64,000 nt of DNA from Blastobasis lacticolella (lineage: Eukaryota; Arthropoda; Insecta; Lepidoptera; Blastobasidae): positions 2,480,001 to 2,544,000 of the forward strand of contig LR990057.1 in assembly GCA_905147135.1 (NCBI GenBank), written 5' to 3'. Under the pieces are notes generated by a model. It did not search any database and was not told where the DNA came from. It saw only the letters and a list, made by a program, of their open reading frames with translations. Made by a program: the position numbers and the translations under genes. This document shows, one piece after another, positions 1 to 44,850 of the stretch (positions are counted from its first letter, which is position 1; the number at the start of each line of letters is the position of its first letter).

Positions 1-3000
1 GTGTAAGGCTGACGATAAGGTGATGACCCACAGGTGGTCCTCCGACACGATCCTGTCGATGTCGGCGAACGTGTGCGTGCCGCCGCCGTGCGGGGAGGTG
101 GCGTGGCCCTCCCCGCCGCGGGCGCCCGAGCGGGCGGCGCGCGGCTCCAAGGCCCGGATGGACCGCCAGAGGGAGGAGAGCGCGTTCGTCGGGACCACGG
201 TAAGGCGGGGACGGGGAGGGGGCGGGGCCCTCCCCGCCGCGGGGCCGCGCGGCTCCAAGGCCCGGATGGACCGCCAGAGGGAGGAGGGCGCGTTCGTCGG
301 GACCACGGTAAGGCGGGGACGGGGAGGGGGCGGGGCCCTCCCCGCCGCGGGGCCGCGCGGCTCCAAGGCCCGGATGGACCGCCAGAGGGAGGAGAGCGCG
401 TTCGTCGGGACCACGGTAAGGCGGGGACGGGGAGGGGGCGGGGCCCTCCCCGCCGCGGGGCCGCGCGGCTCCAAGGCCCGGATGGACCGCCAGAGGGAGG
501 AGAGCGCGTTCGTCGGGACCACGGTAAGGCGGGGACGGGGAGGGGGCGGGGCCCTCCCCGCCGCGGGGCCGCGCGGCTCCAAGGCCCGGATGGACCGCCA
601 GAGGGAGGAGAGCGCGTTCGTCGGGACCACGGTAAGGCGGGGACGGGGAGGGGGCGGGGCCCTCCCCGCCGCGGGGCCGCGCGGCTCCAAGGCCCGGATG
701 GACCGCCAGAGGGAGGAGAGCGCGTTCGTCGGGACCACGGTAAGGCGGGGACGGGGAGGGGGCGGGGCCCTCCCCGCCGCGGGGCCGCGCGGCTCCAAGG
801 CCCGGATGGACCGCCAGAGGGAGGAGAGCGCGTTCGTCGGGACCACGGTAAGGCGGGGACGGGGAGGGGGCGGGGCCCTCCCCGCCGCGGGGCCGCGCGG
901 CTCCAAGGCCCGGATGGACCGCCAGAGGGAGGAGAGCGCGTTCGTCGGGACCACGGTAAGGCGGGGACGGGGAGGGGGCGGGGCCCTCCCCGCCGCGGGG
1001 CCGCGCGGCTCCAAGGCCCGGATGGACCGCCAGAGGGAGGAGAGCGCGTTCGTCGGGACCACGGTAAGGCGGGGACGGGGAGGGGGCGGGGCCCTCCCCG
1101 CCGCGGGGCCGCGCGGCTCCAAGGCCCGGATGGACCGCCAGAGGGAGGAGAGCGCGTTCGTCGGGACCACGGTAAGGCGGGGACGGGGAGGGGGCGGGGC
1201 CCTCCCCGCCGCGGGGCCGCGCGGCTCCAAGGCCCGGATGGACCGCCAGAGGGAGGAGAGCGCGTTCGTCGGGACCACGGTAAGGCGGGGACGGGGAGGG
1301 GGCGGGGCCCTCCCCGCCGCGGGGCCGCGCGGCTCCAAGGCCCGGATGGACCGCCAGAGGGAGGAGAGCGCGTTCGTCGGGACCACGGTAAGGCGGGGAC
1401 GGGGAGGGGGCGGGGCCCTCCCCGCCGCGGGGCCGCGCGGCTCCAAGGCCCGGATGGACCGCCAGAGGGAGGAGAGCGCGTTCGTCGGGACCACGGTAAG
1501 GCGGGGACGGGGAGGGGGCGGGGCCCTCCCCGCCGCGGGGCCGCGCGGCTCCAAGGCCCGGATGGACCGCCAGAGGGAGGAGAGCGCGTTCGTCGGGACC
1601 ACGGTAAGGCGGGGACGGGGAGGGGGCGGGGCCCTCCCCGCCGCGGGGCCGCGCGGCTCCAAGGCCCGGATGGACCGCCAGAGGGAGGAGAGCGCGTTCG
1701 TCGGGACCACGGTAAGGCGGGGACGGGGAGGGGGCGGGGCCCTCCCCGCCGCGGGGCCGCGCGGCTCCAAGGCCCGGATGGACCGCCAGAGGGAGGAGAG
1801 CGCGTTCGTCGGGACCACGGTAAGGCGGGGACGGGGAGGGGGCGGGGCCCTCCCCGCCGCGGGGCCGCGCGGCTCCAAGGCCCGGATGGACCGCCAGAGG
1901 GAGGAGAGCGCGTTCGTCGGGACCACGGTAAGGCGGGGACGGGGAGGGGGCGGGGCCCTCCCCGCCGCGGGGCCGCGCGGCTCCAAGGCCCGGATGGACC
2001 GCCAGAGGGAGGAGAGCGCGTTCGTCGGGACCACGGTAAGGCGGGGACGGGGAGGGGGCGGGGCCCTCCCCGCCGCGGGGCCGCGCGGCTCCAAGGCCCG
2101 GATGGACCGCCAGAGGGAGGAGAGCGCGTTCGTCGGGACCACGGTAAGGCGGGGACGGGGAGGGGGCGGGGCCCTCCCCGCCGCGGGGCCGCGCGGCTCC
2201 AAGGCCCGGATGGACCGCCAGAGGGAGGAGAGCGCGTTCGTCGGGACCACGGTAAGGCGGGGACGGGGAGGGGGCGGGGCCCTCCCCGCCGCGGGGCCGC
2301 GCGGCTCCAAGGCCCGGATGGACCGCCAGAGGGAGGAGAGCGCGTTCGTCGGGACCACGGTAAGGCGGGGACGGGGAGGGGGCGGGGCCCTCCCCGCCGC
2401 GGGGCCGCGCGGCTCCAAGGCCCGGATGGACCGCCAGAGGGAGGAGAGCGCGTTCGTCGGGACCACGGTAAGGCGGGGACGGGGAGGGGGCGGGGCCCTC
2501 CCCGCCGCGGGGCCGCGCGGCTCCAAGGCCCGGATGGACCGCCAGAGGGAGGAGAGCGCGTTCGTCGGGACCACGGTAAGGCGGGGACGGGGAGGGGGCG
2601 GGGCCCTCCCCGCCGCGGGGCCGCGCGGCTCCAAGGCCCGGATGGACCGCCAGAGGGAGGAGAGCGCGTTCGTCGGGACCACGGTAAGGCGGGGACGGGG
2701 AGGGGGCGGGGCCCTCCCCGCCGCGGGGCCGCGCGGCTCCAAGGCCCGGATGGACCGCCAGAGGGAGGAGAGCGCGTTCGTCGGGACCACGGTAAGGCGG
2801 GGACGGGGAGGGGGCGGGGCCCTCCCCGCCGCGGGGCCGCGCGGCTCCAAGGCCCGGATGGACCGCCAGAGGGAGGAGAGCGCGTTCGTCGGGACCACGG
2901 TAAGGCGGGGACGGGGAGGGGGCGGGGCCCTCCCCGCCGCGGGGCCGCGCGGCTCCAAGGCCCGGATGGACCGCCAGAGGGAGGAGAGCGCGTTCGTCGG

Positions 3001-6000
3001 GACCACGGTAAGGCGGGGCCGGGGAGGGGGCGGGGCCCTCCCCGCCGCGGGCGCCCGAGCGGGCGGCGCGCGGCTCCAAGGCCCGGATGGACCGCCAGAG
3101 GGAGGAGAGCGCGTTCGTCGGGACCACGGTAGGGCGGGGCCGGGGAGGGGGCGGGGCCCTCCCCGCCGCGGGCGCCCGAGCGGGCGGCGCGCGGCTCCAA
3201 GGCCCGGATGGACCGCCAGAGGGAGGAGAGCGCGTTCGTCGGGACCACGGTAAGGCGGGGCCGGGGAGGGGGCGGGGCCCTCCCCGCCGCGGGCGCCCGC
3301 GCGGGGGGCGCGCGGCTCCAAGGCCCGGATGGACCGCCAGAGGGAGGAGCGCGCGTTCGTCGGGACCACGGTAAGGCGGGGCCGGGGAGGGGGCGGGGCC
3401 CTCCCCGCCGCGGGCGCCCGAGCGGGCGGCGCGCGGCTCCAAGGCCCGGATGGACCGCCAGAGGGAGGAGAGCGCGTTCGTCGGGACCACGGTAAGGCGG
3501 GGCCGGGGAGGGGGCGGGGCCCTCCCCGCCGCGGGCGCCCGAGCGGGCGGCGCGCGGCTCCAAGGCCCGGATGGACCGCCAGAGGGAGGAGCGCGCGTTC
3601 GTCGGGACCACGGTAAGGCGGGGCCGGGGAGGGGGCGGGGCCCTCCCCGCCGCGGGCGCCCGAGCGGGCGGCGCGCGGCTCCAAGGCCCGGATGGACCGC
3701 CAGAGGGAGGAGAGCGCGTTCGTCGGGACCACGGTAAGGCGGGGCCGGGGAGGGGGCGGGGCCCTCCCCGCCGCGGGCGCCCGAGCGGGCGGCGCGCGGC
3801 TCCAAGGCCCGGATGGACCGCCAGAGGGAGGAGCGCGCGTTCGTCGGGACCACGGTAAGGCGGGGCCGGGGAGGGGGCGGGGCCCTCCCCGCCGCGGGCG
3901 CCCGAGCGGGCGGCGCGCGGCTCCAAGGCCCGGATGGACCGCCAGAGGGAGGAGCGCGCGTTCGTCGGGACCACGGTAAGGCGGGGCCGGGGAGGGGGCG
4001 GGGCCCTCCCCGCCGCGGGCGCCCGAGCGGGCGGCGCGCGGCTCCAAGGCCCGGATGGACCGCCAGAGGGAGGAGCGCGCGTTCGTCGGGATCACGGTAA
4101 GTGTTCAGTGGTCCCAACGTGTCAGTACGGTCGGGCGAGAAAGTGGTCTATCAGCAGTAGACCCCTTATTTCCCCATATCAATAGTTGTCTACAGGCGCC
4201 CGAGCGGGCGGCGCGCGGCTCCAAGGCCCGGATGGACCGCCAGAGGGAGGAGCGCGCGTTCGTCGGGACCACGGTAAGGCGGGGCCGGGGAGGGGGCGGG
4301 GCCCTCCCCGCCGCGGGCGCCCGAGCGGGCGGCGCGCGGCTCCAAGGCCCGGATGGACCGCCAGAGGGAGGAGAGCGCGTTCGTCGGGACCACGGTAAGG
4401 CGGGGCCGGGGAGGGGGCGGGGCCCTCCCCGCCGCGGGCGCCCGAGCGGGCGGCGCGCGGCTCCAAGGCCCGGATGGACCGCCAGAGGGAGGAGCGCGCG
4501 TTCGTCGGGACCACGGTAAGGCGGGGCCGGGGAGGGGGCGGGGCCCTCCCCGCCGCGGGCGCCCGAGCGGGCGGCGCGCGGCTCCAAGGCCCGGATGGAC
4601 CGCCAGAGGGAGGAGCGCGCGTTCGTCGGGACCACGGTAAGGCGGGGCCGGGGAGGGGGCGGGGCCCTCCCCGCCGCGGGCGCCCGAGCGGGCGGCGCGC
4701 GGCTCCAAGGCCCGGATGGACCGCCAGAGGGAGGAGCGCGCGTTCGTCGGGATCACGGTAAGTGTTCAGTGGTCCCAACGTGTCAGTACGGTCGGGCGAG
4801 AAAGTGGTCTATCAGCAGTAGACCCCTTATTTCCCCATATCAATAGTTGTCTACAGGCGCCCGAGCGGGCGGCGCGCGGCTCCAAGGCCCGGATGGACCG
4901 CCAGAGGGAGGAGCGCGCGTTCGTCGGGACCACGGTAAGGCGGGGCCGGGGAGGGGGCGGGGCCCTCCCCGCCGCGGGCGCCCGAGCGGGCGGCGCGCGG
5001 CTCCAAGGCCCGGATGGACCGCCAGAGGGAGGAGAGCGCGTTCGTCGGGACCACGGTAAGGCGGGGCCGGGGAGGGGGCGGGGCCCTCCCCGCCGCGGGC
5101 GCCCGAGCGGGCGGCGCGCGGCTCCAAGGCCCGGATGGACCGCCAGAGGGAGGAGCGCGCGTTCGTCGGGACCACGGTAAGGCGGGGCCGGGGAGGGGGC
5201 GGGGCCCTCCCCGCCGCGGGCGCCCGAGCGGGCGGCGCGCGGCTCCAAGGCCCGGATGGACCGCCAGAGGGAGGAGCGCGCGTTCGTCGGGACCACGGTA
5301 AGGCGGGGCCGGGGAGGGGGCGGGGCCCTCCCCGCCGCGGGCGCCCGAGCGGGCGGCGCGCGGCTCCAAGGCCCGGATGGACCGCCAGAGGGAGGAGAGC
5401 GCGTTCGTCGGGACCACGGTAAGGCGGGGCCGGGGAGGGGGCGGGGCCCTCCCCGCCGCGGGCGCCCGAGCGGGCGGCGCGCGGCTCCAAGGCCCGGATG
5501 GACCGCCAGAGGGAGGAGCGCGCGTTCGTCGGGACCACGGTAAGGCGGGGCCGGGGAGGGGGCGGGGCCCTCCCCGCCGCGGGCGCCCGAGCGGGCGGCG
5601 CGCGGCTCCAAGGCCCGGATGGACCGCCAGAGGGAGGAGCGCGCGTTCGTCGGGACCACGGTAAGGCGGGGCCGGGGAGGGGGCGGGGCCCTCCCCGCCG
5701 CGGGCGCCCGAGCGGGCGGCGCGCGGCTCCAAGGCCCGGATGGACCGCCAGAGGGAGGAGAGCGCGTTCGTCGGGACCACGGTAAGGCGGGGCCGGGGAG
5801 GGGGCGGGGCCCTCCCCGCCGCGGGCGCCCGAGCGGGCGGCGCGCGGCTCCAAGGCCCGGATGGACCGCCAGAGGGAGGAGCGCGCGTTCGTCGGGACCA
5901 CGGTAAGGCGGGGCCGGGGAGGGGGCGGGGCCCTCCCCGCCGCGGGCGCCCGAGCGGGCGGCGCGCGGCTCCAAGGCCCGGATGGACCGCCAGAGGGAGG

Positions 6001-9000
6001 AGCGCGCGTTCGTCGGGACCACGGTAAGGCGGGGCCGGGGAGGGGGCGGGGCCCTCCCCGCCGCGGGCGCCCGAGCGGGCGGCGCGCGGCTCCAAGGCCC
6101 GGATGGACCGCCAGAGGGAGGAGCGCGCGTTCGTCGGGATCACGGTAAGTGTTCAGTGGTCCCAACGTGTCAGTACGGTCGGGCGAGAAAGTGGTCTATC
6201 AGCAGTAGACCCCTTATTTCCCCATATCAATAGTTGTCTACAGGCGCCCGAGCGGGCGGCGCGCGGCTCCAAGGCCCGGATGGACCGCCAGAGGGAGGAG
6301 CGCGCGTTCGTCGGGACCACGGTAAGGCGGGGCCGGGGAGGGGGCGGGGCCCTCCCCGCCGCGGGCGCCCGAGCGGGCGGCGCGCGGCTCCAAGGCCCGG
6401 ATGGACCGCCAGAGGGAGGAGAGCGCGTTCGTCGGGACCACGGTAAGGCGGGGCCGGGGAGGGGGCGGGGCCCTCCCCGCCGCGGGCGCCCGAGCGGGCG
6501 GCGCGCGGCTCCAAGGCCCGGATGGACCGCCAGAGGGAGGAGCGCGCGTTCGTCGGGACCACGGTAAGGCGGGGCCGGGGAGGGGGCGGGGCCCTCCCCG
6601 CCGCGGGCGCCCGAGCGGGCGGCGCGCGGCTCCAAGGCCCGGATGGACCGCCAGAGGGAGGAGCGCGCGTTCGTCGGGACCACGGTAAGGCGGGGCCGGG
6701 GAGGGGGCGGGGCCCTCCCCGCCGCGGGCGCCCGAGCGGGCGGCGCGCGGCTCCAAGGCCCGGATGGACCGCCAGAGGGAGGAGAGCGCGTTCGTCGGGA
6801 CCACGGTAAGGCGGGGCCGGGGAGGGGGCGGGGCCCTCCCCGCCGCGGGCGCCCGAGCGGGCGGCGCGCGGCTCCAAGGCCCGGATGGACCGCCAGAGGG
6901 AGGAGCGCGCGTTCGTCGGGACCACGGTAAGGCGGGGCCGGGGAGGGGGCGGGGCCCTCCCCGCCGCGGGCGCCCGAGCGGGCGGCGCGCGGCTCCAAGG
7001 CCCGGATGGACCGCCAGAGGGAGGAGCGCGCGTTCGTCGGGACCACGGTAAGGCGGGGCCGGGGAGGGGGCGGGGCCCTCCCCGCCGCGGGCGCCCGAGC
7101 GGGCGGCGCGCGGCTCCAAGGCCCGGATGGACCGCCAGAGGGAGGAGCGCGCGTTCGTCGGGATCACGGTAAGTGTTCAGTGGTCCCAACGTGTCAGTAC
7201 GGTCGGGCGAGAAAGTGGTCTATCAGCAGTAGACCCCTTATTTCCCCATATCAATAGTTGTCTACAGGGATTGATACCCATGGGGTTGATACTCACTACT
7301 ACGGGGGATGCACACATGGGGTACGCACTTGAACAGAATAGTGAAAACAGATGTTGTGTTTAGTAGCTTTCCTGACAAAAAAGTGCAAAAATCTGCTATT
7401 AATACATTTGATAGTCTGTTATTGATGTTTTTTTTAGAATAGCTACTATTAAATGTCACCTGCGACAATTATTTGAACGATTTTTCCAACGCAACGCACA
7501 GTATAGTGACACATTGTTACTGTGTGCACTACGCGAAGTGACGGTCCATATATTAAATAATCAGATTATCCAGCAGACTGCACAATAGACTTACCTTCAG
7601 CCCTCCTTACAGTAGAACTAACTATGGGCAGCACTCTTCTTTGTCCAGAATGTGTGCAAATTATAATAGGTTGATATAGCTCGTCTAGTCTAAAATGACG
7701 CGCCCCACTACTTAGTTAGTTGATTTCGATGAGTGAGTGCAAATATTAATAACGACACTTCATCTGTGTGGGAGCGTCGACTGCTCCAATCAAACGACGC
7801 GTGCAACGTGAACGAGTCTCACCGGCAACTGAATGACAATTTACAACGGCATTTGTATATATATTGCGTCCATATTTTAAACTTGCTTGTGTGCGTTAAT
7901 GCGATAGTGGGGCGCGGCATTTTAGATTAGACGAGCTCTACCATTGTATGATATTAATGGTGGCTAGGTAATTAATAAACTTCGTATAAACTTTTAAATA
8001 CATATTTAATATACATAGAACACCCAGACCCGTAACCCGGCCGGGAATTGAACCCGGGATCTCTTGCGTGGCAGATGTTGACCACTGAACCACTCAGGTC
8101 GTCAATATTAGACTAAGGGCGCCGTAGGTTATTCTACGTCGAGTCCAAGAAAATTTTTCACTTTATAGCGAAAGTAGATGTTTAGGAGACCCACAAAACG
8201 TTGGTCCTGCACTAACTGGTAAAAAAAATATTTGTTAGTTAACCAAACTTCGTCTTTTCGTAGCGATAGTACTTTTATATCCTCTTATGTGTCATCTGTA
8301 AGTAAAAAAACTGGTCGGCCTCACATCCTCTTGGCAGTTTCGTTTTTCAGCCACATTATATTCACCAAAACGAAAAGTGATTTTTAAAATGGCTGAAAAG
8401 CGACAATCTATATATGTTACTAAGAGATGTAACAAACCGCCCCCCCGCAGCCCCCGCACCCGTTCGTGCTGACGCCCATGGCGGCGGGCGCGGACGACCC
8501 CGCGCTGCGGGCCGCGCTCGCGCACTACCGCGCCACCGGCGCCCGGATACTCAACAACCACCATCGCCGTGAGTGTATATCCTTTATAACTTTATCAATA
8601 AATATGCTTATACAAATCACACAGCGCCATCTAGCCCCCAAAATAAGCGAAGCTTGTTTTATATGTTTAATATTTTACTTTTTTATTATTGTTTGGCCGT
8701 GTGGTGTCCGGCAGAGTAGAATAGCACCAACCCCTTACACTCGTGTTCGTACAAGGCGACTAATGTTTTCGAGACAAAAGATCTGAGCGCCTCCGTAAAC
8801 TGGAAAATGGGCAGCAGCGTTTTCCATTGTTATATTATAACACTGCGATCTCCAACCCGCCTGCCAAGCGTGGAGATTATGGCAACAACCTCCCTTTTCG
8901 TGGGAGAGGCCCAAAGTCCTGCAGTGGACTATTATGGACCGTGATGACGATGATGATGATTATTGTTTTTAATATGCTACTGCTTCACATTATCCTTTTT

Positions 9001-12000: not shown

Positions 12001-15000
12001 TACCCAAACGAATGAAAGAATGGAAAAAATATAGGCCGAATTTTCCAGTACAAAATGAAGTTTATTTTAATTTACCATAACTTTTTTCCCACAACAACTC
12101 GATAGTTGTCGTCATAGAAGTTGTCCGGACCTCCTTTAGTATGGAAATCGAACCCTCTTAACTAAGATCGACAGGGGTGTCAAAAATGCTACTGAGTTTT
12201 AATACCTAGCGGGCGTCTAGGTAATGCGCTTATTACACATTCTTAAATTCAGCGACTGAATTCAGAAACAAAAGCGTGAGAGCAAATCAAATTGGAATGT
12301 ATTGCTCATAGAATAAGGTCCATTTTTGTATCACTTATATTAAGTCACGCGTCGCTCCGCTTTTCAAAAATCCGAGATATAAAAATGGACCTTATTCTAT
12401 GAGCAATACATTTCACTTCGATTTGCTCTCACGCTTTTTGTTTCTGAGTTCAGTTACTGAATTTAGGAATGTGTAATAAGCGCGTAAAATGTTAAGCACT
12501 TCATAGCAAATCTATTGCGTTTGAGGATCGAAACGAATACTGCGAAAGTGGCCGATCGTAGCCGAGGAGTTCCGATCAACGTATTTTGAGCTGAGTTGTG
12601 TTCAATCCTTTACATTATCTCCCCCCCCCCCTCCCCTCAGGTATCATTCCGCTGCCGCTGCCCTCGTATTTTGAAGCATTGAATGCCTAGCTAATCCTAA
12701 AAAATCCCGCTAAACTCAGCCCCCTCCCCCTAGGTATCGTTCCGCAGCCGCTGCCCCCGCTGCGGCACCCCGTCCCGGGCGCTGCCGGTGCGGCGGCCGT
12801 CGCTGGCGCTCTCCCTGGCGCAGTACGTGCGTCTGCGGGCCTTGTCCCGTCGCTCGGGCCCGCGCGGCCGCGGCTGCCCGCACCCGCTACATGCGCACAC
12901 GCATATGTTCGTGCAGGGACTCACTACGGCGTCTTTCAAGTGAGTACTGCGCACGTACGTGGACGTATGCAAAGCCCTGTCCACACGACACAAACTTAGG
13001 CTTGCCCAGCGCGTAGAGGTGTTCGTTATATTAGATAACGGGTATATTATAACGGTATAAAAATATACTTATAACGCCCAATATTAATACATAATATTTT
13101 CTGCTACTAATATATTATAACATAATATCACCAAATATATTGATTAATAATACATTTTTATATACGATTTTGTTCCCCAAGGTACTAAATCAACTGTAAA
13201 TAATAATACAAACTGAAAAACGGCGACCGTTATACGGTACATAAAATTATATTAGGGTGTTATATTATAACGTTAAAGATAACATAATATTTTTAAATAG
13301 CATAACGTTACGTTATGTTATATGAATGTAACGGATCCGCGCACCTCTACCAGCGCGTTTGTATAAACGAAGTTTGCGCACCGGATCGTGTAGACGTCAA
13401 ATTTCAAATTAGAGAATTTGACGTCTACACTATCCGTTTGTGCAAACGCGCTGTGCAAGCATAAGTTGGTGTCGTGTGAATCGGCCTTTAAGTAACACCC
13501 ATAACACAAGCTTTGCTTACTTGGGGCTAGATGGCGCTGTGTGGATTTGTCCAAGCATATTTATTTATTTATTCTTATTTATGGGTCGGTGCGCGGACTG
13601 TATTTGTTACACGTCATGTATTCATACGTACATTCACACTCCCGCCCGTATCCCGTAGGGGTAGACAGAGACTGAGTGCCACAAGTTAAAATGCTGACAC
13701 ACCTCTTGGCTTTTTCACATTATTTATTTATTTAACAGTGACAAATTTGACAAAGAAAACAACCAAAACAGGTACTGCTTACTTCTAAACTAGCGACCCG
13801 CCCCGGCTTCGCGCAGGTCACGAAATAGGTAACAAATTATTCATCTAAAGCTATTTATTTAACATTTATTGTGCACAATAAATAGTATACAAAATAGCCA
13901 TACAGAAAAAATCACAACAGGTACAGCTTATTTCTAAAGAAATATCTGTATATACCATTGTCATCAATCTCATCTGATCCGCACAACCCGTTTGGGTGCA
14001 ACCAGTTCGCCAGAGCCTCGCCGTCCACGAGAAGGAGAGGTTGGCTTTTGAGCCCACAGAATGATTGTAGGGCCCCAACCCCTCTGTCAACACTTAACAG
14101 TCACATACCTGACTACCAGTTATAAAAAAGCCATCTCACGAAAACGAAATTACAAGCATGAGGCATTTCATCTTAGTCCTTACAATGACACAGAATCTGC
14201 GGTTCTGCATTTTTTGCTACCTAAATGTATGAATCGTAGATGTTATGAGCAACAGTTACCACTTGCCATTAGGTGGGCTGTCTGCTCATTTGTCACTGAA
14301 TAGCAAAAAAAAATTATCAAAGAAATACCTGTACACACCCAGATACAACAAGATATCGACGTTCGACGTGAAGCTGCCGCCGCCGGAGATCGCGACCAAC
14401 TACGACACGCGGCAGATGCGCGACGCGCTCATCAGCCAACTCAACGACCTCATGCTGAAAGGTTGGCAGTTTTTACTTTATTCTTTCTATCTTATCACAG
14501 GCGTATGTATATTTAGCTGACGAAGCTCGTCCGCGAACTCTACGCCAACGAATACATCCGTGACAGCCTTTAGGCTATTAGGGCGCCGTAGGTTTTCCTA
14601 CGTCATCGAGTATAAGAAAAAATAGACTCTGTAGCAATGGTGGACGTTTAGGCGACGTTTTTTTAGTTTCCCTTTGGCGGTGAAGGGTAAGATAGCCGCC
14701 AATGTTGGCAAGCGAAGATGGTGAGAAGGTAGGAAAAGGGTAATTACCCACCTGGCCGGGTGTTGTGACCAGGGGACCAAGGGTCCGACAGTTGATCGTC
14801 GGAAGTGGTATATATGCCGTGGAAGTTGGCACATTTCTCTAGCGCGATGCAGGACGGTTAGCGCCATCTATGTGCGGATGCTTGCCAACCTTGTGTTCGT
14901 GTACTCGTAATGTGAGTATCGTTGAGGTTCCCTGTTAGAGCGATAGATGTCGCTATATCCCAAACTTAGATTTTTAGTAGTGATAGTACTTACTTCCTTA

Positions 15001-24000: not shown

Positions 24001-27000
24001 TGTTGTTTCTTATTATCACTGCCGTCCGGCCATGGCTATTACCAGATGGATGATTCGTTGTGTAGAGCGAATAATCTTTAATGTGTGTTCTGGATGTGAA
24101 CCTTGTTTCCGATATCAGTGCTACATCGATTGATTCCATGTGATAAATTTTATTTTTATTTTTTTTATGTCATACGGTAGGCAAACAGGCAAGCGGGCCA
24201 CCTGATGGAAAGTGGTCACCACTGGCTATAGACATTAGCAACACCAAGAGTATCGCTAATGCGTTGCCCACCTCTATAACACGTTGCTCTGGCAGCAAAA
24301 AGCAAATGCCACTCCACTGCCAAAGCCACGGTTCCCCAAATCCCCACCCCATGGAGCTCTGGAAACCTTACTCACCGGCAGAAACACAATATTATTTAAA
24401 AGAGTATTATTTAGCTGCGATATTCTGTAAGGTGGAGGGGTACTTCCCCAGTCGGGCTCCAATTCGAACGAGATACCCCGCTATGCCCTACCTCTCTTGA
24501 AATGTTTCAAATTCTTGACGGTTATCCGTCAAGCCATTGGCGTTCCAAGTTACTACTCGGAGTTTATAGTTCATTTTTAGTAAGGCTGTTAAATATCTGG
24601 ACCATGCGATCCAGCATTTTGTCCATCATTTCCATCATTGTCTGTTGAAGTTTGTTTAGCATGGTTTCCATAATTTCAGTCATTTCTTTATGGTTGATTC
24701 TACCTTCAGTTTGCGGTACCGGTTTCTGGTGCGCTGCTGCTTCGGCATAAGTTTTGGCAGGTCTTTGGTCTCTTGAAAAGGTTCGCTTATAGTTTTTTTA
24801 TTCTTGACGCTCATTAGAATTCTGTTGCTCAGTCGGTTGTGCGGAAGTTTTAGTAGGCTGTTGAGACAAGGGTGTATCAGCTTCGTTCTTGGTTTTGGGC
24901 TGTTTTCCTTTGGTAGATGTGGATGCGATCTTGAGAATTCTTTCTCTCTGTAGGTTTTACATCCTTTATAGCTAGCCGGATGTTTCCCTTGACAGTTTAT
25001 GCAGGTTGCCTCGGTGTCAGGTCTCTTCTTGCAGGTCGATGTTGGGTGTTCTTCGCCGCATTTGACGCATCTGTATGGTCTGTTGCAGAGATTCTTTGAG
25101 TGCCCATACCTTTTTATTTAATGACGATTATTATTATTTGTTGTTATGGCGGCCGTAATAACACACATTCTGTGTCTAGTAGTTCAAGTTTCTAGCTATT
25201 ACGGTTCCGAAGATACAGTCACAAAGAGTACCAGTGTATGGGTAGCGCCATAGTGGCGGGCGAGATTGCGGTCTGGTGACGTCAGGCACGAATTCACGCC
25301 CCTAATGAAATTATTCTTGAAATCGCAACTTTAAAGTCTCATGACTTTTTTGTTTCTTGAGATATTTCAACATTTTTTTCACCGTTTTGTTTTATTTGAA
25401 ATTTAATTGCAAAAATTTTTTGAAACTTCGTCATTATGGAAACAACAACTTCGAGTACCATATGTGCGTGCGTGTAGAGAGATAAAATAATAAGATGTAA
25501 AAATAATATACATATCTTAAATATATTAAAATACTACATTCGTGTCTCAATAAATAAATACCTACTAGCATATAAAAATAAATACCTATTATGATGGATC
25601 ACGTCCCGTGCATTAGTTAGTTATAGCTTTTTTAACATTAAGTAAAAATTCAAGATACGATTTTTTAAAACTAAACTTGGACTTAATGCTACGTAAGGGC
25701 GGAGGAATGTCCTTCCAACCTTTAGATGCGCGATAACTGAAAGCTCCTCCAAATGCCGCAATTCTGTGTTGCGGTATGGAATATCTAGTTATTTCGGAGT
25801 AACGCCATGTGAGCTTATTGGGCTTATTGAACCATACATCAGTGTTAAGCGATGATACATTTTTAGAAGATTTGATTTGTCAAGGAAAGGAGTAACATAT
25901 GTACGTGATAGTATAGGGAAGCAAAAACGAGCACAGGCGTTCTGAATTCTTTGTACAATTTTCTCAGTGTTTATCTATAATGACGGGCCATATACTCCTA
26001 TACTTACAGTAATTTAATTTAGAAAGAGCTAGGATTTCACATAGTTTAATCCGCATTTCAACGCTTATAAATGATCTGATGCGATAGAAAAAATATCTCT
26101 AGAGAACCTATAAAAACAGTTTCTAGCTAAATCGATCACATTATTTTCGAATCGAAACTGCGATACTGTTGTATTTTGTATGAAAATAACTGCTGTAAAA
26201 TGACGTATCTGTTTCAATGATAAGTCTTTTTGATATCAAACCACCTCTCGATCGCGGTTTTTTGCGATTTTGGATTGCACTGTATATAGTGTTGTATCGG
26301 CAGGCGTGGTACGACGGCTGTGGGGGGTGTCGGACGCGCTGACGCTGGCCGAGAAGATGGTGGCGGACGCCGCCGACCGCGACGCCGGCGCCCAAGCGCT
26401 GTCGGGCAAGCAGAGCAAGCCCGAGCCTGCAGGTGGGTATTCCCAGGCGTGGGGGCGGCTGTGGGCGGCGTGGGCGGCCGAGGAGATGGTGGCGGACGCC
26501 GCCGACCGCGACGCCGGCGCCCAAGCGCTGTCGGGCAAGCAGAGCAAGCCCGAGCCTGCAGGTGGGTATTCCCAGGCGTGGGGGCGGCTGTGGGCGGCGT
26601 GGGCGGCCGAGGAGATGGTGGCGGACGCCGCCGACCGCGACGCCGGCGCCCAAGCGCTGTCGGGCAAGCAGAGCAAGCCCGAGCCTGCAGGTGGGTATTC
26701 CCAGGCGTGGGGGCGGCTGTGGGCGGCGTGGGCGGCCGAGGAGATGGTGGCGGACGCCGCCGACCGCGACGCCGGCGCCCAAGCGCTGTCGGGCAAGCAG
26801 AGCAAGCCCGAGCCTGCAGGTGGGTATTCCCAGGCGTGGGGGCGGCTGTGGGCGGCGTGGGCGGCCGAGGAGATGGTGGCGGACGCCGCCGACCGCGACG
26901 CCGGCGCCCAAGCGCTGTCGGGCAAGCAGAGCAAGCCCGAGCCTGCAGGTGGGTATTCCCAGGCGTGGGGGCGGCTGTGGGCGGCGTGGGCGGCCGAGGA

Positions 27001-30000
27001 GATGGTGGCGGACGCCGCCGACCGCGACGCCGGCGCCCAAGCGCTGTCGGGCAAGCAGAGCAAGCCCGAGCCTGCAGGTGGGTATTCCCAGGCGTGGGGG
27101 CGGCTGTGGGCGGCGTGGGCGGCCGAGGAGATGGTGGCGGACGCCGCCGACCGCGACGCCGGCGCCCAAGCGCTGTCGGGCAAGCAGAGCAAGCCCGAGC
27201 CTGCAGGTGGGTATTCCCAGGCGTGGGGGCGGCTGTGGGCGGCGTGGGCGGCCGAGGAGATGGTGGCGGACGCCGCCGACCGCGACGCCGGCGCCCAAGC
27301 GCTGTCGGGCAAGCAGAGCAAGCCCGAGCCTGCAGGTGGGTATTCCCAGGCGTGGGGGCGGCTGTGGGAGGCGTGGGCGGCGTGGGCGGTGACGGACGGC
27401 CGAGAAAAGTTTCTTCTATCTATAATTAATTTACTATCACATTCGAAGAGCTTTTTCTATCAGGCTTATCTGAGATAAACTGAACGAAATCCCGCTCTGG
27501 AATAAGCCTGCGCAGTATTCATTGTATTTATTTTTATATTGTATTTTGTTAACATTAATGTCCATATAAGCTTTCAAGAATTGTCTATGTATTCAGTACG
27601 ACATGCACAACGTTTCTGAAAATACCTTCTGTAAACTAAATTATTTTATTTTATTTTCAGTGGAAGAAAAGTCTGATATAGAGGACTCATCCGGCGATCC
27701 TGCGAACGATAGTTCAGGTGGGATAACATTTTTTTTTATTATAAAAAATTCAATCGTCTACAATAATGTATTTCACACTCCAACACACGTGAGACTTTAT
27801 TACTTTCAGTATGCTTCATAAATCATAAGTTTTATTGTGTCGAAGGTACAGAAGAAGACGAGGAAAAGGGTGACAAGAAAACCGTGCGACAGATCCTTAT
27901 ACAGCTGCTGTCCAACAACCAGCCGTCTAATCAGGTAAGAAATAAAGTAATTCGTGTTTGTAGAATTCTGCGTTTATCTAATTGTAGAGATTTTTCATGC
28001 TACTCAGTGACAAAAAAGCAGATAGTTCACCTGATGGTGAGTGGTAACTGTCGCCCTTAACATCCATACTTGCTCAAGAAACAGCTATGAATGTAAATAT
28101 TGCTTGGACAATTCACACAGTGTCATCTAGCCCCAAAGTAAGCAAAGCTTGTGTTACTGGTGCTAAATAACTTATAAACTACTTATATACTTATGTAATA
28201 TGGTATCTTCCGGCCTATATTATAAACGTGAAACTTTGTATGTTTGAATGTCTGTGACTCATCATCATATCAGCCAGAGACGCCTACTGCTGGGGATAGG
28301 CCTCCCCCACTCACGTTCTCACTCACGGGGGCTTGTCACTCAATCATGTAAAATGGCTGAATGTATTTGTTTAAAATTTGGCACACATATAGTTTATAAC
28401 TTGAATGTATTTCCCACGGAAACATATAAAAACCGAATCTTACGCGTAGGAAACCGCAGGCAAAAGCTATTTGTAAAATATAGAGGTTCCATGGAATTAA
28501 TGTACAGCTGATGCGACTTTAAACTTTTCTGTTCCGACCTACATTTCTGCTCGGTTTTCTAGTCAATAAGTTGTATAAATAACCTAATCACTTTAGCGCT
28601 AGACTACCCAATTCTTGAATAAAATTAGGGTTTCCTGATCACTTTAGCGCTAGACCGCCCAATTCTTAAATAAAAAAGTAATCACATTGGTTGAATCTCC
28701 CTTTTCGGTTATTCGACAATACCCATTGTTCTCCTGTTGCCGTTATTGTGTTTAATGGTCGAAGTTTTCCTGAGTATGCTCTGTTGAGAAGCAAAACACA
28801 TGTTAAGGTTTACCAATAGTGTTGTGAGTGTGGTGAACCTCTAATTGATGTTAAATATCCAATCATCATCATCCTCCTAGCGCTCATCGTAGCCTCTGCC
28901 AAGGTCCGCTTTCCTACCCATTCTTCTCCACTTCGCCTGGTCTTCGGCATTATCGCATAGTAAGCCGTTGGCTCTCGCATCCGACTCAGCGATGATAATA
29001 CATCGCTTCTTGGGTCGCCCACAGGGCTTCTTTCATGATACCGACATGTTCGGGCACCTATTTCCCACGTATTCCTATGATTTGTCTTGACTGACTTGGT
29101 GAACAAACAATACCTAAAATCACGACTTGCCGTATACAATCAATCAATCACGCTACGTACACTGTGTATGGATATCTTGAAACACATAGAATGTAAATTT
29201 CAACGTTTAGTGCTGCAAATTATCCATTTAAATACATAATTTCCGTAACCAAATAAGACAAGTCAGTCTGGACAGATTTTATATCCAATGAAAAGCCAGT
29301 AACAGTGCCCCTTTGTTATTATCCGTAGCGCGGTCTGGCCGTAGTGGGCGGTCTGATCCCAGTGTGGGCGCGCGGCGGCGACATCGGCGCCGTGGTGGCC
29401 GCCGCGCTCGCCTCCGTCACCTACCACCGCACGCTGCGGGCCAACGCCATGGCCGCGCGGCACAGGTGACTGCCACACACACACACACACCCACACACAG
29501 GCGCCGTGGTGGCCGCCGCGCTCGCCTCCGTCACCTACCACCGCACGCTGCGGGCCAACGCCATGGCCGCGCGGCACAGGTGACTGCCACACACACACAC
29601 ACACCCACACACAGGCGCCGTGGTGGCCGCCGCGCTCGCCTCCGTCACCTACCACCGCACGCTGCGGGCCAACGCCATGGCCGCGCGGCACAGGTGACTG
29701 CCACACACACACACACACCCACACACAGGCGCCGTGGTGGCCGCCGCGCTCGCCTCCGTCACCTACCACCGCACGCTGCGGGCCAACGCCATGGCCGCGC
29801 GGCACAGGTGACTGCCACACACACACACACACCCACACACAGGCGCCGTGGTGGCCGCCGCGCTCGCCTCCGTCACCTACCACCGCACGCTGCGGGCCAA
29901 CGCCATGGCCGCGCGGCACAGGTGACTGCCACACACACACACACACACCCACACACAGGCGCCGTGGTGGCCGCCGCGCTCGCCTCCGTCACCTACCACC

Positions 30001-30495
30001 GCACGCTGCGGGCCAACGCCATGGCCGCGCGGCACAGGTGACTGCCACACACACACACACACCCACACACAGGCGCCGTGGTGGCCGCCGCGCTCGCCTC
30101 CGTCACCTACCACCGCACGCTGCGGGCCAACGCCATGGCCGCGCGGCACAGGTGACTGCCACACACACACACACACCCACACACAGGCGCCGTGGTGGCC
30201 GCCGCGCTCGCCTCCGTCACCTACCACCGCACGCTGCGGGCCAACGCCATGGCCGCGCGGCACAGGTGACTGCCACACACACACACACACACCCACACAC
30301 AGGCGCCGTGGTGGCCGCCGCGCTCGCCTCCGTCACCTACCACCGCACGCTGCGGGCCAACGCCATGGCCGCGCGGCACAGGTGACTGCCACACACACAC
30401 ACACACACAGGCCCGTGGTGGCCGCCGCGCTCGCCTCCGTCACCTACCACCGCACGCTGCGGGCCAACGCCATGGCCGCGCGGCACAGGTGACTG

Positions 30496-30528
<33 letters not shown>

Positions 30529-33500
30529 CCCGTGGTGGCCGCCGCGCTCGCCTCCGTCACCTACCACCGCACGCTGCGGGCCAACGCCATGGCCGCGCGG
30601 CACAGGTGACTGCCACACACACACACACACACACACACACAGGCCCGTGGTGGCCGCCGCGCTCGCCTCCGTCACCTACCACCGCACGCTGCGGGCCAAC
30701 GCCATGGCCGCGCGGCACAGGTGACTGCCACTCACACACACACACACACACACACGCAAGCAACGCATATACAGACAGAGACACGTACGATGGATGCACT
30801 TCAGCTACACACATTCGCTGTCACATCCAATTGCGTCACCTACCACCCTTCTTTTGTCAAACTGATTTAGGTGGTACGATGCTATGATATCCCAATCCGG
30901 AACAGCTGTCACAAGTAACTATAACTTAACCGACAAAATGTGTCGGTAAACCGCCGACAAAGTCCACGTACAATGAAATATTTCCTAAACTATTGAACCG
31001 ATTTTAATGAGATTTAACTAGTTTTCAAATGAAGAAACTCGTATCAAAATCGGTCGACCGATTCGGGAGCACACAGACGCACATTACATAGACAGTAAAA
31101 ACTCGTATCATTTGAACTTTGACTATTGCATCGAAATAAAAAATTTGACTTTTTCGCAAAAAGTTTACACGAAAGTATAGTAAGAACATATTTGTAATAA
31201 GTAAAACAAAATACCTTCTTTCGCAGCGTACAAACTGAACAAGAGGAAGTGGAAAGCTCTAATTCTGGAAAAGAGAAAGGCGAAGGAGACAAATCGAAAC
31301 CAGCCAAGCCGAACGACCATATCGAGGTGTTGTTGAAGGTAACATTGTAATTGCATAACTGAAAACGCCATCCAATCAAAGCTATTTTCTATGAAAGTGA
31401 TTTAGAAATTTTCAACTATATATCCACATAAAGATGAAGGAAACATTTCAACCTTCATCTTGCTTCTTAATTTAGACTATTGAATTAGTAGCCAAGTGTA
31501 ATAAAATAAGCCTTTACCCTACAATTTCATGTTGATTGATACCGCTCTATCACTTTAGTTAGCAGCGCATGAAAGAACACTCTCACATCTGATATGGTTT
31601 TCTCTCAATTTTTTGGAGCTTTGGATTTTGGATTTTGGATTTTTTTTATTACCTAAATGTGACTAGGTTTATTTATTTAGGTTATAGACGAGCAGCATTG
31701 TTGCTGATGTGTCTATATCACACAGTGTTGAAAGTCATTTTAAATCAAGTAGAGACAGTTTTTTTGACTTCAACCACTCGTCCAATCTGTTCTTGAAGGA
31801 ATTCACTGGCACAGCTGTCACAACATTTTGTGGTAATTTGTTCCAGTTTGATACCACTCTGTTAGTTTAATACATTTTATTAGCTCTTACGCTTTTTGCT
31901 TCTTAATTTAGACAACATTAATATACATCGGCAACCCCTTTCCAGGACAACCTCCTCTGCCGCATATACTTCGCGTCGCAGTTCCTCAAGCTACGGCATA
32001 TGCTACTGGCGCCGCTCGACCCCGACCGCGACGACCGCCGCTGCTGCGACGACTTCAAGGAGAAGGATGGTGGGTGGGAGGGGTAGGGTAGGGGAGGGGG
32101 GAGAGGGAGAGGGGTGGATTGGTTTGAAGGCAAATAAAATAAAATCAAATTTTATTAGTTGAGTAGGACCGACCTTTGTGGAGATCTCTGGGGAAGGCCT
32201 ATGCCCAGCAGTGGGCGTCTTTCGGCTGATATGATGACATTAAATGTCACTTTCAATCGTCAAAATTATGAGGTTAGGAAAGTAGGAAAAAAAAACACAG
32301 TGTAAGTGTAGGACGATGAGTATAACGTAGGGCCCAGCCATCGTCCAATTCAATCATATTTGAGGGAAAAAGGCGACCCAGCCTCCACGCCACCGCCAGA
32401 CAGACGAAGCGAGCGCGCATCACAATTGCTGCATGTGACAGGTAGCTGCTCCCACCATACCCTACCTTACCCAATACCTACCCAACCCTACCCTACACCT
32501 ATTCTACTCCTACCAACCTTTTTTTCTTACTTTTAAACCACCCCTGCCTTATAACGAACCAAACAAAAAAATTATTGTCGACCTCAGACCAGCCATTTTC
32601 GAGTTTTAGCGAGACTAATGCACAACAATTGATTTTTAATGATATACATAGATTATTTTACCTTCAAGGGCTGCCAATCGGCAACCGAGACAACCAGTCT
32701 CAAGCTCCTGACAATGACACTAACATTATTTTGAATCCATTCTACATCTCAATTCCATATCGTGTACTCAGATTTCACCACTAAAATGACCATCCCTTCC
32801 CCATACAGCGAAGAATCTGTGCAGTACGGAGGAATGTTTCCTGCGGTCGCTGTCGCACTGCGTGCCGTGGGCCGCGCGCGGCGGGAAGTCTGGGTCCACC
32901 TTCTGCAAGACCAAGGGTAGGTACAATACAGGGTAGCTAGTTAACTTAAATACTAAATTTCTTTTAAATAAAATTAAAGTTGCTAGGTATTTTTTTGAAA
33001 ATCATTTATTATTTGGGCTTGGTAATTACGTATTTCATAATTCGTATACACGACAAATTTTTAGCTCTTTTAATCGCGTTTCTCATCACAGTATCCCGGC
33101 TTTATCGTACTGACTGAGACTCGGATATTCTGTTTTAATGATGAATATTCCTTGAATTTGTTACCATACAGTCAATGAGTTAGTCAAGACTTGTCAAATC
33201 CGGTGATCTTGGAGCCAATCAATGTCACCATTGTAGAGAGGTCCAAGCGTACAATGACGAATATGCGTCTATGAAGCTACGCTTTTGTCCCCGGACCAGA
33301 GTCCATAGTGGTCCTTAAAAATAAAAGTAACAGTAATTGTTGTCGAAAAATTTAAATATTGTGCATAGAATTAAAAATCCTTTCTAAAATATATCAATCA
33401 ATATAAAGTTTGACATTTTTAATTTTAATAAATTCTTTGCGGATTCTAAGTTTGTTTTCGGGTGGCTCTGGGTGTCAAAACTCAACGGCTCCTCGGGTCG

Positions 33501-39500: not shown

Positions 39501-42500
39501 TTGACTGAAGCCGACCAACCGTCAGTCGCAGTTGATACTAATCCTTACGCTGTATAAAATAAAGTCGATTTTGGGGAGGACGTGGTCGAGCATTCGACCG
39601 AGGTCGTTTTATACTACTCAGGTACAAGCGAGCAGACAGCCCATCGGATTGTAAGCGGTTACTGTCGCCCATAACATCTACGATTCATGCATTTAGGTTG
39701 CAAACAAAAACCTCGATCTTGACAGAGTCCTCCCAACTGATAAAATCGTACCTTACGGTATCGACTGCAATGGTTCGTCGGCTCCAGCCAAATCGGAGCC
39801 TCTGTTAGTAAGCTTCCCCTCCCCCCCAGCGCGCATAGTGGGCGTGTACAGCGTGGGCGGCGCGGGCAACGGGGTACTGGTGATGGAGAACGTGTGGTAC
39901 GGCGCCGCGCCCGCCGCCACCAGATACGACCTCAAGGGCGCGCAGAGGCACCGACTCGCATCGAGGGACCAGGATGCGGCCGCTGTGTTGCTGGATGAGA
40001 ATCTGCTTAATTGTAAGTCACACGCTTTACACATTTACTCGCAACACACAAAGAGTAAATAGAGTCACAGCACACGCTTTACACGTTACACACGACAGGT
40101 AAATAGAGTCACTGCACACGCTTTACACATTTACACACTACACACGATGGAGAACGTGTGGTACAGCGCCGCGCCCGCCGCCACGCGATAAGACCTCAAG
40201 GGCGCGCAGAGGCACCGACTCGCGTCAAGGGACCAGGATGCGGCCGCTGTGTTGCTGGATGAGAATCTGCTTAATTGTGAGTCACAGTACACGCTACACA
40301 CGATAACGCACACTTCCGTCCTGCTCGACGAGAACCTGCTCAATTGTGAGTCTGTTAGTAGTCTTTCTACGATGAGAATCTGCTCAACTATGAGTCACAC
40401 CTACCTAACCTACACACGACAGGTAAATAGAGTCACTGCACACGCTTTACACATTTACACACTACACACGATGGAGAACGTGTGGTACGGCGCCGCGCCC
40501 GCCGCCACCAGATACGACCTCAAGGGCGCGCAAAGGCACCGACTCGCGTCAAAGGATCAGGATGCGGCCGCTGTGTTGCTAGATGAGAACCTGCTTAACT
40601 GTGAGTCACACACTTTACACATTTACTCGCAACACACGAAGAGTAAATAGAGTCACAGCACACGCTTTACACGTTACACACGACAGATAAATGGAGTCAC
40701 TGCACACGCTTTACACGTTACACACGACAGGTAAATAGAAATGCCATGTGGGGCGTTGGAACTATCACGAACGCTCGGTGCCACCTCGGCCTCTACTGCG
40801 CGTAACTTTTACTGCGTAGTAACAGTCATGTGTCAGATACTCATCATCATCATCTTGGCATTAATGGCCCACACATCTCCACATCTTCAACACTGGAATA
40901 ATTAATTAATAAGAGCAACTTTAAAGAACTTAAGAGACCCTAGCAAGCTCGAAATTTATTTTTGGCTTAAATTAGCTGGGGCGACATAATAAAGTCAACA
41001 AACCAATGACTGAGCGAGCGCAGCATGGATTGAACACGAGATGCGAGCGATATTAATGTTTAAGAAATGACCGAGCGCAGACAGTTTGAAATTTTGCAAA
41101 TTTTGCTGTAATTTTGTTGTGCTTTGGTTTACTTGGTAAACCAAAGGACAACAAAATTACACTCTTGTGTTTATAGTATTTTGCTCATAAACACGCACTG
41201 CTTGGTTGGCGTGAAGTTCGCAAGTCAGCGACGGCTAAGTCTTGCACCATCACATATCTAATTATGCCCCTGGTTGATCGACGCTTTTGAGTCTCCGATA
41301 ACTGAAAGCAACTATTACCCACTCTCACGATCCCAGTGCGCTGGGAGACCCCGCTATACATCCCGTCGCACCGCGGCGCCGTGCTGTGGCGCGGGCTGGC
41401 GCGCGACGCGGCTTTCCTCGCCAGACACACCGTCATGGACTACTCCCTGCTGCTGGGCATTGATGGCGGTACACTCGTGCTCGGGATCATTGGTGAGTGA
41501 TGGACGGACGGACAGACTGTGTATAGCTAGGACAGGCTTGTATACTATAGGCCTACATCGCGCGGCACACCGTCATGGACTACTCGCTGCTGCTGGGCAT
41601 TGATGGCGGTACACTCGTGCTTGGGATCATTGGTGAGTGGTGGACGAATGAATGGACACGCTTGTATACTATAGGCCTTCCTCGCACGACACATCGTCAT
41701 GGACTACTCGCTGCTGCTGGGTATTGATGGCGGTACGCTCGTGCTCGGGATCATTGGTGAGTGATGGATATTATTAGAACTTTTATATTGCTAGAATTTT
41801 TACTCCATTGTGAAAACACAGTGATGAAGCAGGGTATTCGTCACTGTTTTCTTACGGCGAATGGAGTTTAGTCCTCGGAAGGCCCTTTCATTTGTGTTCC
41901 CATTCGTCAGGAAATATATTTCCCATACAAAAAAATGATGACGTTTTAAGGGAAATATTTTTAGTACTACGGGTCAAAACGATTAGGCATCTAGTACACG
42001 TGTGCCAAACGGCTAGCTTGTATATACATCGTTATATTGAAATTCGGTTCGTATTTCGACCACTATATGGATGGTTTGGGAATAAATGGTTTCATTTCCA
42101 AACTCGCCACGCAATCTTCGTTGGTATGTGATGTCAAGGAGAGCCTTGACACAACACCGCGAACCTAACATCAAGGACCGTCACAGAGTACCAATCGGCT
42201 CCCTCGATTCTTCAACCAATCTCAGAGTCCCAGGAGAACATTTTGATCCTCGCTTTGCCAACGGTATTATGAGGAGGCACACCTAACGAGTGGCGAGCTT
42301 ATTGCGGTGCCTTACGAATTAGGAAAGAGTATGAAAGATATGGTAGCAAATTCGCATACGAATCCATTTCGAATGGTAAAAATACGGCGCCTGAGCGTCG
42401 ACTAGCCCCAAAATACGAAACGGTCACCCATCCTTAACCGTCTAAGGCGTTTGAATCGTTGCTTTTTGTTATCGGTCTTGCACTTACACTGCCTAGATCA

Positions 42501-44430: not shown

Positions 44431-44850
44431 TTTTATCTTTATATATATAATTCTTCTGTGAGTGTGTATGTCACTGAACTACTCTCAAACGACTGGACCC
44501 ATTTTGATGAAATTTTTTGTGTGTGTTCAAGGGGATCTGGGAATGGTTTAGATTCACATCTAAGGTGTAGGGTAGGTGTAGGGTAGGTGTAGGGTAGGTG
44601 TAGGGTAGGTGTAGGGTAGGTGTAGGGTAGGTGTAGGGTAAGTGTAGGGTAGGTGTAGGGTAGGTGTAGGGTAAGTGTAAGGTAGGTGTAGGGTAGGTGT
44701 AGGGTAGATGTAGGGTAGGTGTAAGGTAGGTGTAGGGTAGGTGTAGGGTAGGTGTAGGGTAGGTGTACGGTAGGTGTAGGGCAGGTGTAGGGTTAGAACG
44801 CTACGCGAACGAAGTCGCGCCGGGTCCACTAGTTCATATATAAATTCAAA
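44430..44850. mobile_element. Helitron-like or SINE-like element carrying an 11-bp minisatellite
   Basis: The left side has aactactctcaaacgactgg; the right side ends cgaacgaagtcgcgccgggt ccactagt, a common insect non-autonomous Helitron-type end. Between them (about 44568-44790) are about 20 units of gtgtagggtag, 11 bp, with point variants. It is not the insect telomere repeat TTAGG. Confidence 0.65.

Follow-up and report, generated by a model that had tools for sequence, protein, structure and literature searches.

Exon-end minisatellites spanning 5' splice sites in the PIKfyve gene and other genes of the moth Blastobasis lacticolella

The PIKfyve gene and its duplicated exon ends

The stretch of DNA considered here, in the following termed the window, comprises 64,000 nucleotides of contig LR990057.1 of the moth Blastobasis lacticolella (assembly GCA_905147135.1) and contains the 3' part of a PIKfyve gene, five exons of which are followed by tandem copies of their own 3' part together with the 5' splice site (donor). 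The window corresponds to C18:2480001-2544000 of the 577-Mb assembly, which consists of 45 contigs; other places in the assembly are likewise given by contig and position. The gene lies on the plus strand and is represented by 19 exons in consistent phase, extending from 34 to 42721. When the first donor of each array is used, all 19 exons join in phase to a frame of 849 amino acids (aa) with an intact kinase domain, the translation of which matches human PIKfyve (PDB 7k2v) with E 8.5e-69; the closest proteins among the matches listed are lepidopteran PIKfyve proteins with at most 66% identity.

A blastn search with every exon plus 20-base flanks against the window (cut-off E 1e-3) revealed second copies of exons 1, 6, 9, 12, 17, and 18 only, and no second copy in the window of exons 2-5, 7, 8, 10, 11, 13-16, and 19. 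An earlier reading made from the sequence alone (the sequence-only reading) had claimed six duplicated sites in this gene, five of them consisting of an exon 3' end plus donor. Both statements were borne out by blastn and donor counts, which gave five donor arrays and, at exon 6, one duplicated 3' splice site (acceptor). The five arrays contain 60, 8, 12, 3, and 3 long copies, native copy included. By blastn, the copies start inside the exon, at positions 58, 44, 58, 53, and 78-90 of exons 1, 9, 12, 17, and 18, respectively, and end beyond the donor. The features concerned are as follows; native exons are taken from the gene model, those of the kinase region also from the PDB 7k2v match, and arrays from Tandem Repeats Finder (TRF) and blastn.

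34..199, + strand, native exon 1, first copy, donor ACG/gtaagg
200..7267, + strand, array 1, 59 extra copies of the exon 1 3' part plus donor in 108- and 121-bp units
12627..12663, + strand, duplicated exon 6 acceptor plus first 23 exon nt, located 5' of the native exon (blastn)
12734..12939, + strand, native exon 6
26304..26432, + strand, native exon 9, donor CAG/gtgggt
26433..27390, + strand, array 2 (exon 9), 7 extra 129-bp copies
29329..29465, + strand, native exon 12, donor CAG/gtgact
29466..30770, + strand, array 3 (exon 12), 11 extra copies with a (CA)n intron piece
39830..40012, + strand, native exon 17, kinase domain (PDB 7k2v match)
40013..40739, + strand, array 4 (exon 17), copies at 40146-40286 (95%) and 40470-40620 (93%) with 44-bp intron repeats
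41337..41492, + strand, native exon 18, DYSLLLGID motif (PDB 7k2v match)
41493..41768, + strand, array 5 (exon 18), copies at 41566-41646 (96%) and 41678-41768 (93%)
42534..42721, + strand, last PIKfyve exon with stop codon

Array 1 contains 60 donors between 200 and 7169, the first 27 at a spacing of 108 bp and the remainder at 121 bp, with three spacings of 177; it is thus laid out as a 5' block of 108-bp and a 3' block of 121-bp units with additional higher-order structure, and its TRF match is 98-99%. Donors 36, 41, 52, and 60 are followed by a 99-bp intron piece (gtaagtgttc..tctacag). Array 2 has eight donors at a spacing of 129, all in the same phase and in an open frame; by eye, the intron piece of its unit contains a stretch resembling the exon 9 acceptor and first exon bases, possibly an old, diverged copy of the whole exon inside the unit. 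Array 3 has 12 donors spaced by 107-117 bp. Exon 17 is further represented by two short fragments recognised by eye near 40312-40345 and 40371-40392, and the duplicated piece of exon 6 is 89% identical to exon positions -13..23 (blastn). All 11 TRF rows with a period of at least 44 fall into the exon arrays or the intron repeat around the exon 17 copies; this, and the GC bias given below, goes beyond chance. With respect to coding capacity, 27 donors of array 1 and the eight of array 2 keep phase with the frame open, and in arrays 3-5 a stop is met in the first intron piece on read-through, in array 3 directly as TGA. The exons carrying the five donor arrays are richer in guanine and cytosine (GC) than the other 14 PIKfyve exons (Mann-Whitney p=0.007), in accordance with the earlier claim that GC-rich exons host the arrays.

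A dispersed repeat family or introner as the source of array 1 was discarded, the unit matching 60 places that all lie within array 1, in a search that covered the array 1 unit and skips very common words.

The four copies of the 99-bp piece (window 4097-4195, 4758-4856, 6145-6243, and 7169-7267) end in the acceptor-like tctacag; in three cases a 78-nt exon piece comes next, which would be joined in phase 0 and is a candidate for a new cassette exon.

Scans of the same assembly

The assembly was scanned for a donor pattern, GGTRAGT occurring three times at a spacing of 97-127 bp, with the reversed pattern as control. This gave 1106 matches (542+564) versus 352 (210+142) for the reversed pattern; a Fisher test on such hits is descriptive only, because copies of one array are not independent. 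The listed matches form seven arrays on C1 and C2, and inspection of the flanks of all seven revealed that six start as a GC-rich exon with its own donor and finish in lower-GC intron, the seventh (C1:3.10M) having an in-frame stop directly before GTGAGT and being left ambiguous. One of these arrays lies in what we take, by the motif WVVVTNCSDGLDY, to be a dynein-like gene, and another presumably in a C2H2 zinc finger gene; in the latter the last copy is truncated. An acceptor-pattern scan gave 150 matches (76+74) versus 129 (67+62) reversed and is a weak test, its pattern covering 1 of 19 acceptors in PIKfyve, whereas the donor pattern covers 4 of 18 donors. It yielded one genuine acceptor array, located in NTE/sws (C7:2.92M), in which the native exon is the last copy, and also one donor array (C5:17.77M).

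A splice-neutral sample was obtained with three GC-rich motifs chosen regardless of splice sites (GCGCCGC, CTGGAGC, and GTGCTGG; spacing 97-127 bp), CTGGAGC being picked to avoid arrays already met. The sample covers GC-rich repeats with a period near 97-127 bp, AT-rich repeats and other periods lying outside it, and its listings show the first places, on C1-C2 for GCGCCGC, up to C12 for CTGGAGC, and up to C13 for GTGCTGG. Matches versus reversed motif numbered 1630 vs 1738, 227 vs 284, and 227 vs 141, respectively. Among the listed places, 17 were non-transposon arrays with at least two hits: 12 span a donor, two an acceptor, one is ambiguous, and two are without splice site. The ratio of 12 to 2 corresponds to a two-sided sign test of about 0.013, calculated by hand, and bears out the expectation of the sequence-only reading that donor-overlapping repeats exceed acceptor-overlapping ones in this genome.

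Donor-spanning: C1:0.84M, C1:15.56M, C2:2.889M, C3:2.77M, C7:13.98M, C8:10.80M, C9:10.51M, C9:16.63M
Donor-spanning, continued: C3:0.229M, C5:17.789M, C11:20.26M, C13:5.30M (of C2:2.889M, C8:10.80M, and C11:20.26M only the 5' end was inspected, of C5:17.789M only the 3' end)
Acceptor-spanning, native copy last in both: C2:2.903M, C12:1.037M
Ambiguous, stop codon followed by a donor-like site: C1:3.10M
No splice site seen: C5:0.72M, C10:9.29M (C5:0.72M is possibly a coding repeat, rich in Pro/Ala, on the opposite strand)

Dropped from the sample were single hits (GCGCCGC: C1:2988143, C1:3092680, C1:17312764, C1:18898634; CTGGAGC: C3:14788791, C12:17525110) and one sequence found by CTGGAGC at several places (C2:22624287, C2:23084728, C7:13135867, C12:2727092). 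Four further single-hit places with a donor in the unit (C6:7194501, C7:5601765, C8:20590983, C9:7633163) also stand outside the 17.

Each array examined derives from its own host exon. PIKfyve is an extreme case of a wider pattern, although the count of six sites in a single gene, given by the sequence-only reading, is correct for the window. Extrapolated roughly, the seven listed donor-pattern arrays in about 48 Mb correspond to about 80 arrays with the exact donor and spacing in the genome and, with the 4-of-18 coverage, to a few hundred.

Three of the arrays, two of donor and one of acceptor type, lie within about 31 kb (C2:2872828, C2:2889702, and C2:2903000); we presume that they probably belong to one dynein heavy chain gene, which would be a second multi-array gene. 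The arrays at C5:17.77M and C5:17.789M may belong to a third, which we assume to be spectrin-like.

Anatomy of the repeat units

Of 13 arrays entered into a junction table, C1:12.6M was without exon match and 12 were counted; the table leaves out PIKfyve exon 17, the zinc finger array, and arrays fetched at one end only. The exact native intron sequence per unit in the 12 donor arrays amounts to 5, 6, 7, 7, 10, 11, 12, 12, 13, 16, 33, and 48 nt (median 11.5), some of these lengths (e.g. that of C7:13.98M) being underestimated because exact matching ends at the first mismatch. The non-exon share of the unit is less than one half in 11 of the 12 arrays (sign test p=0.006; Kolmogorov-Smirnov test versus uniform p=0.0015). 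Of 18 listed unit lengths, 6 are multiples of three, which is the chance rate and leaves two thirds out of frame, so that selection for preservation of the frame was rejected; the list of 18 is without some arrays, such as C1:3.10M, C1:12.6M, and C5:17.77M.

Other Lepidoptera and control genes

Predicted PIKfyve proteins were represented by the best 120 of 1099 matches, i.e. 52 from Lepidoptera (P0001-P0052; P0012 was placed there, and unnamed 'lgn' proteins in one group or the other, by rank) and 68 from other insects. Internal repeats were detected by a k-mer diagonal method and considered strict when they comprised at least 20 aa with at least 90% identity at an offset of at most 200. In this set, strict repeats are present in 7 of the 52 lepidopteran proteins and in none of the 68 others. 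The seven proteins represent six other lepidopteran species, Plutella contributing two models, and their repeats were assigned to exons by reading the gene models from which they derive against that of the window.

Duplicated are exons 6 and 16 in Phthorimaea, 17 in Manduca, 1 in Euphydryas (ten copies), 1 and 17 in Colias, 14, 17, 18, and 19 in Plutella, and 3 in Papilio machaon, so that exons 1, 17, and 18 are duplicated both here and in gene models of other Lepidoptera. Joins of the donor type, ending at the exon 3' end, were found in Phthorimaea (6, 16), Manduca (17), Euphydryas (1), Plutella (17, 18), and Papilio (3), and joins of the acceptor type, starting at the exon start, in Colias (1) and Plutella (14); Colias exon 17 and a second piece in Plutella exon 14 are interior, and Plutella exon 19 is repeated at the stop codon. 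For Manduca (exon 17) and Papilio machaon (exon 3), we read the model as continuing across a short stretch of intron and into another exon end.

Two control genes, which are not matched to PIKfyve for exon number or GC content, gave strict repeats in 1 of 49 (ROCK; Lepidoptera-ranked) and 1 of 86 proteins (NTE; isoforms counted singly, the caddisfly protein P0278 dropped), in both cases from Choristoneura, and in none of 40 and 33 proteins of other insects, respectively. Set against 7 of 52 for PIKfyve, these values led us to reject the notion that such repeats are a property of any moth gene. Under a looser criterion, repeats were found in 10 of 52 PIKfyve, 1 of 49 ROCK, and 11 of 120 NTE proteins; 9 of the 11 NTE proteins share one pair with a 39-aa offset (69-77%), two of these nine being from outside the Lepidoptera (P0301, P0311).

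The C-terminal repeats of the Choristoneura ROCK protein (P0159) can be read as a frame-shifted version of the exon before them, joined in a donor-like manner, which suggests that in this moth a control gene, too, carries an exon-end array.

Comparison with known systems

A human counterpart is the polymorphic 31-bp variable number tandem repeat (VNTR) of CBS, c.1444_1467+7(16_21), which is present in 16-21 copies and by its notation consists of 24 exon and 7 intron bases, with a donor in every copy (PMC2630376). It differs from the moth arrays in being one polymorphic locus with a 31-bp unit, whereas the latter occupy many loci in GC-rich exons, with 55-140 bp units, in one assembly. Units made up of an exon 3' end plus 5' splice site, as in this VNTR, are found in the five PIKfyve arrays and in 12 of the 17 genome arrays. 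The donor-spanning exon minisatellite is thus a kind already known from single loci, and the statement of the sequence-only reading that no such family is described falls in so far as the CBS VNTR is one. No description of a genome-wide class, or of such arrays in Lepidoptera, was found in searches of a library with few subscription journals, several of which displayed a fraction of their hits (e.g. 15 of 54 and 8 of 37). The same gene also carries 844ins68, a duplicated intron 7/exon 8 junction with the distal site favoured and a normal mRNA (PMC2630376). The sites are called splice donors in that source and are read here as acceptors, making this insertion a mirror of the moth arrays, albeit a single duplication and not an array.

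When introns are gained through tandem genomic duplication at AGGT, tandem exon copies with splice signals are likewise involved and the extra copy becomes intronic, but the new intron is created inside an exon, whereas the moth arrays are located at existing introns (PMC3443670, PMC2891723). The donor arrays with inspected flanks start at the exon donor and, wherever the far end was retrieved, pass into intron of lower GC content, a comparison made without ancestral states and with the 99-bp piece of array 1 as an unproven exception. Polyubiquitin genes resemble the arrays in having introns in tandem repeats and rows of candidate sites; there, however, the repeats are coding and the sites serve as both donor and acceptor (PMC10809524), whereas two thirds of the listed moth units are out of frame. 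Introners likewise form a genome-wide class tied to splice sites, but copy themselves into many genes (PMC9860276), whereas every moth array examined derives from the exon that hosts it. Internal tandem repeats altering gene structure have also been described for human segmental duplications (PMC2812944).

Other features in and near the gene

Upstream of the window, where exon ends were recognised by eye, 22 copies of a 20-bp minisatellite unit begin a few bases 3' of a PIKfyve donor (L013:5668-6107, window -4332 to -3893), a 30-bp minisatellite of 2.3 copies lies about 20 bp after a donor (L013:7514-7583), and one of 56-61 bp lies upstream of an acceptor (L013:6781-7228). Intron 8 contains a reverse transcriptase reading frame (20408-23428, minus strand; PF00078, E 4.9e-30) of a non-LTR-like (long terminal repeat) element, and intron 16 contains an F-box reading frame (PF00646; 35727-37085, minus strand, and 37542-37922, plus strand), with by eye a partial inverted copy alongside. 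A search for RNA families, a candidate source that was rejected, gave one marginal tRNA-like match only (16047-16115, minus strand, 29.5 bits), possibly the head of a short interspersed nuclear element; by eye, a similar stretch lies near 8030-8100. Downstream of the gene, an 11-bp repeat occurs in 21 copies (44563-44793). Elsewhere, six kinase-domain matches (model 123-208) with similar scores lie on one strand of C30:1665208-1748232 at intervals of 14-19 kb, possibly a tandem gene or segment cluster.

Interpretation

We consider it probable, at roughly 0.7, that these repeats are donor-anchored exon minisatellites, formed by GC-confined tandem duplication, of which selection leaves mainly the donor-spanning events as intronic passengers that then expand. 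Short tandem duplications (units of 55-140 bp) would arise in GC-rich exons, which form GC islands in AT-rich DNA, and most of them would damage the gene. A duplication spanning the exon 3' end and the donor would leave, as the first copy, a complete exon whose donor still works; splicing from this first donor would remove all later copies as intron, and the array, being intronic, would therefore be free to grow and to be homogenised via slippage or unequal exchange. In the mirror case the acceptor would be spanned and the native copy be the last, which would be tolerated too, but be rarer. Three parts of the scheme are inferred, namely that RNA is spliced from the first donor, that the arrays are neutral, and how the duplications arise physically; the protein should usually stay unchanged despite the arrays. 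Direct support comes from the unit anatomy, the donor bias, the GC bias in PIKfyve, the short intron remnant, the absence of a frame preference, and the recurrence in other genes and in lepidopteran gene models. Units that are mostly exon, keep the donor, and ignore the frame are expected if GC-rich exon DNA duplicates and mainly events leaving exon plus donor first survive.

Several points weigh against this interpretation. Exon 2 is without array yet has a GC content of 77%, so that GC alone does not account for PIKfyve being affected so often. Filler or diverged sequence of 1-61 nt is present at 11 of 12 junctions instead of clean microhomology, which was seen, with 4 nt, at one of the 12. 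The minimum of five kept intron bases is partly circular, because arrays cutting the donor would not be classed as donor-spanning and because 4 of the 12 arrays were first met via the GGTRAGT-containing pattern. The frame-neutral open arrays 1 and 2, with their 27 and 8 donors, fit neutrality but also optional translation of the copies, and, as acceptor arrays exist, the donor bias is a relative one.

The best-surviving alternative, which we nevertheless regard as rather unlikely, is that mutation itself is targeted to 5' splice sites by transcription-linked breaks at exon/donor junctions, be it through R-loops, G-quadruplexes, or small GC-rich exon circles like microDNA that are released and re-inserted. 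The low non-exon share of the units means that the 3' breakpoint hugs the donor, and microDNA has been described as measuring 100-400 bp on average and originating from unique sequence with high gene density (PMC5587290). Acceptor-spanning arrays and arrays without splice site occur as well, however, and the GC-to-AT boundary at the exon end would alone suffice to stop duplications confined to GC-rich DNA close to the donor. The sequence-only reading had proposed replication slippage, R-loops, or G-quadruplexes as a possible cause; a simpler explanation of the donor bias lies in the kinds of duplication that a gene can tolerate. A functional role of the copies, as alternative donors or in-frame repeats giving variable proteins or splicing regulation, would agree with the open, in-phase donors of arrays 1 and 2 and with the 99-bp piece, its tctacag end, and the phase-0 exon piece that follows it three times, but is made improbable by the stops in arrays 3-5 and by unit lengths divisible by three only at the chance rate. 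An assembly or library artefact multiplying GC-rich sequence, conceivable in that all evidence in Blastobasis lacticolella comes from one assembly, is very improbable in view of the ordered variants and higher-order structure of array 1, the divergence of the exon 6, 17, and 18 copies (89-96%), and the related duplications in gene models of six other Lepidoptera.

Implications

As donor-anchored exon minisatellites, the arrays represent a natural test of the duplications that a spliced gene tolerates, donor-spanning ones with the native copy first and acceptor-spanning ones with the native copy last. Only tentatively, and with more doubt than confidence, do we extend this to Lepidoptera at large, where exon minisatellites at 5' splice sites might form a large class (hundreds of loci by the rough extrapolation given above), the duplication process preferring GC-rich exon/donor junctions and supplying new intron, spare donors, and occasional extra exons. 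Should they prove common among moths and butterflies, such arrays would be a source of intron growth, of alternative exons, and of errors in gene models, and they would provide naturally occurring constructs, with as many as 60 consecutive donors, for the study of spliceosome choice.

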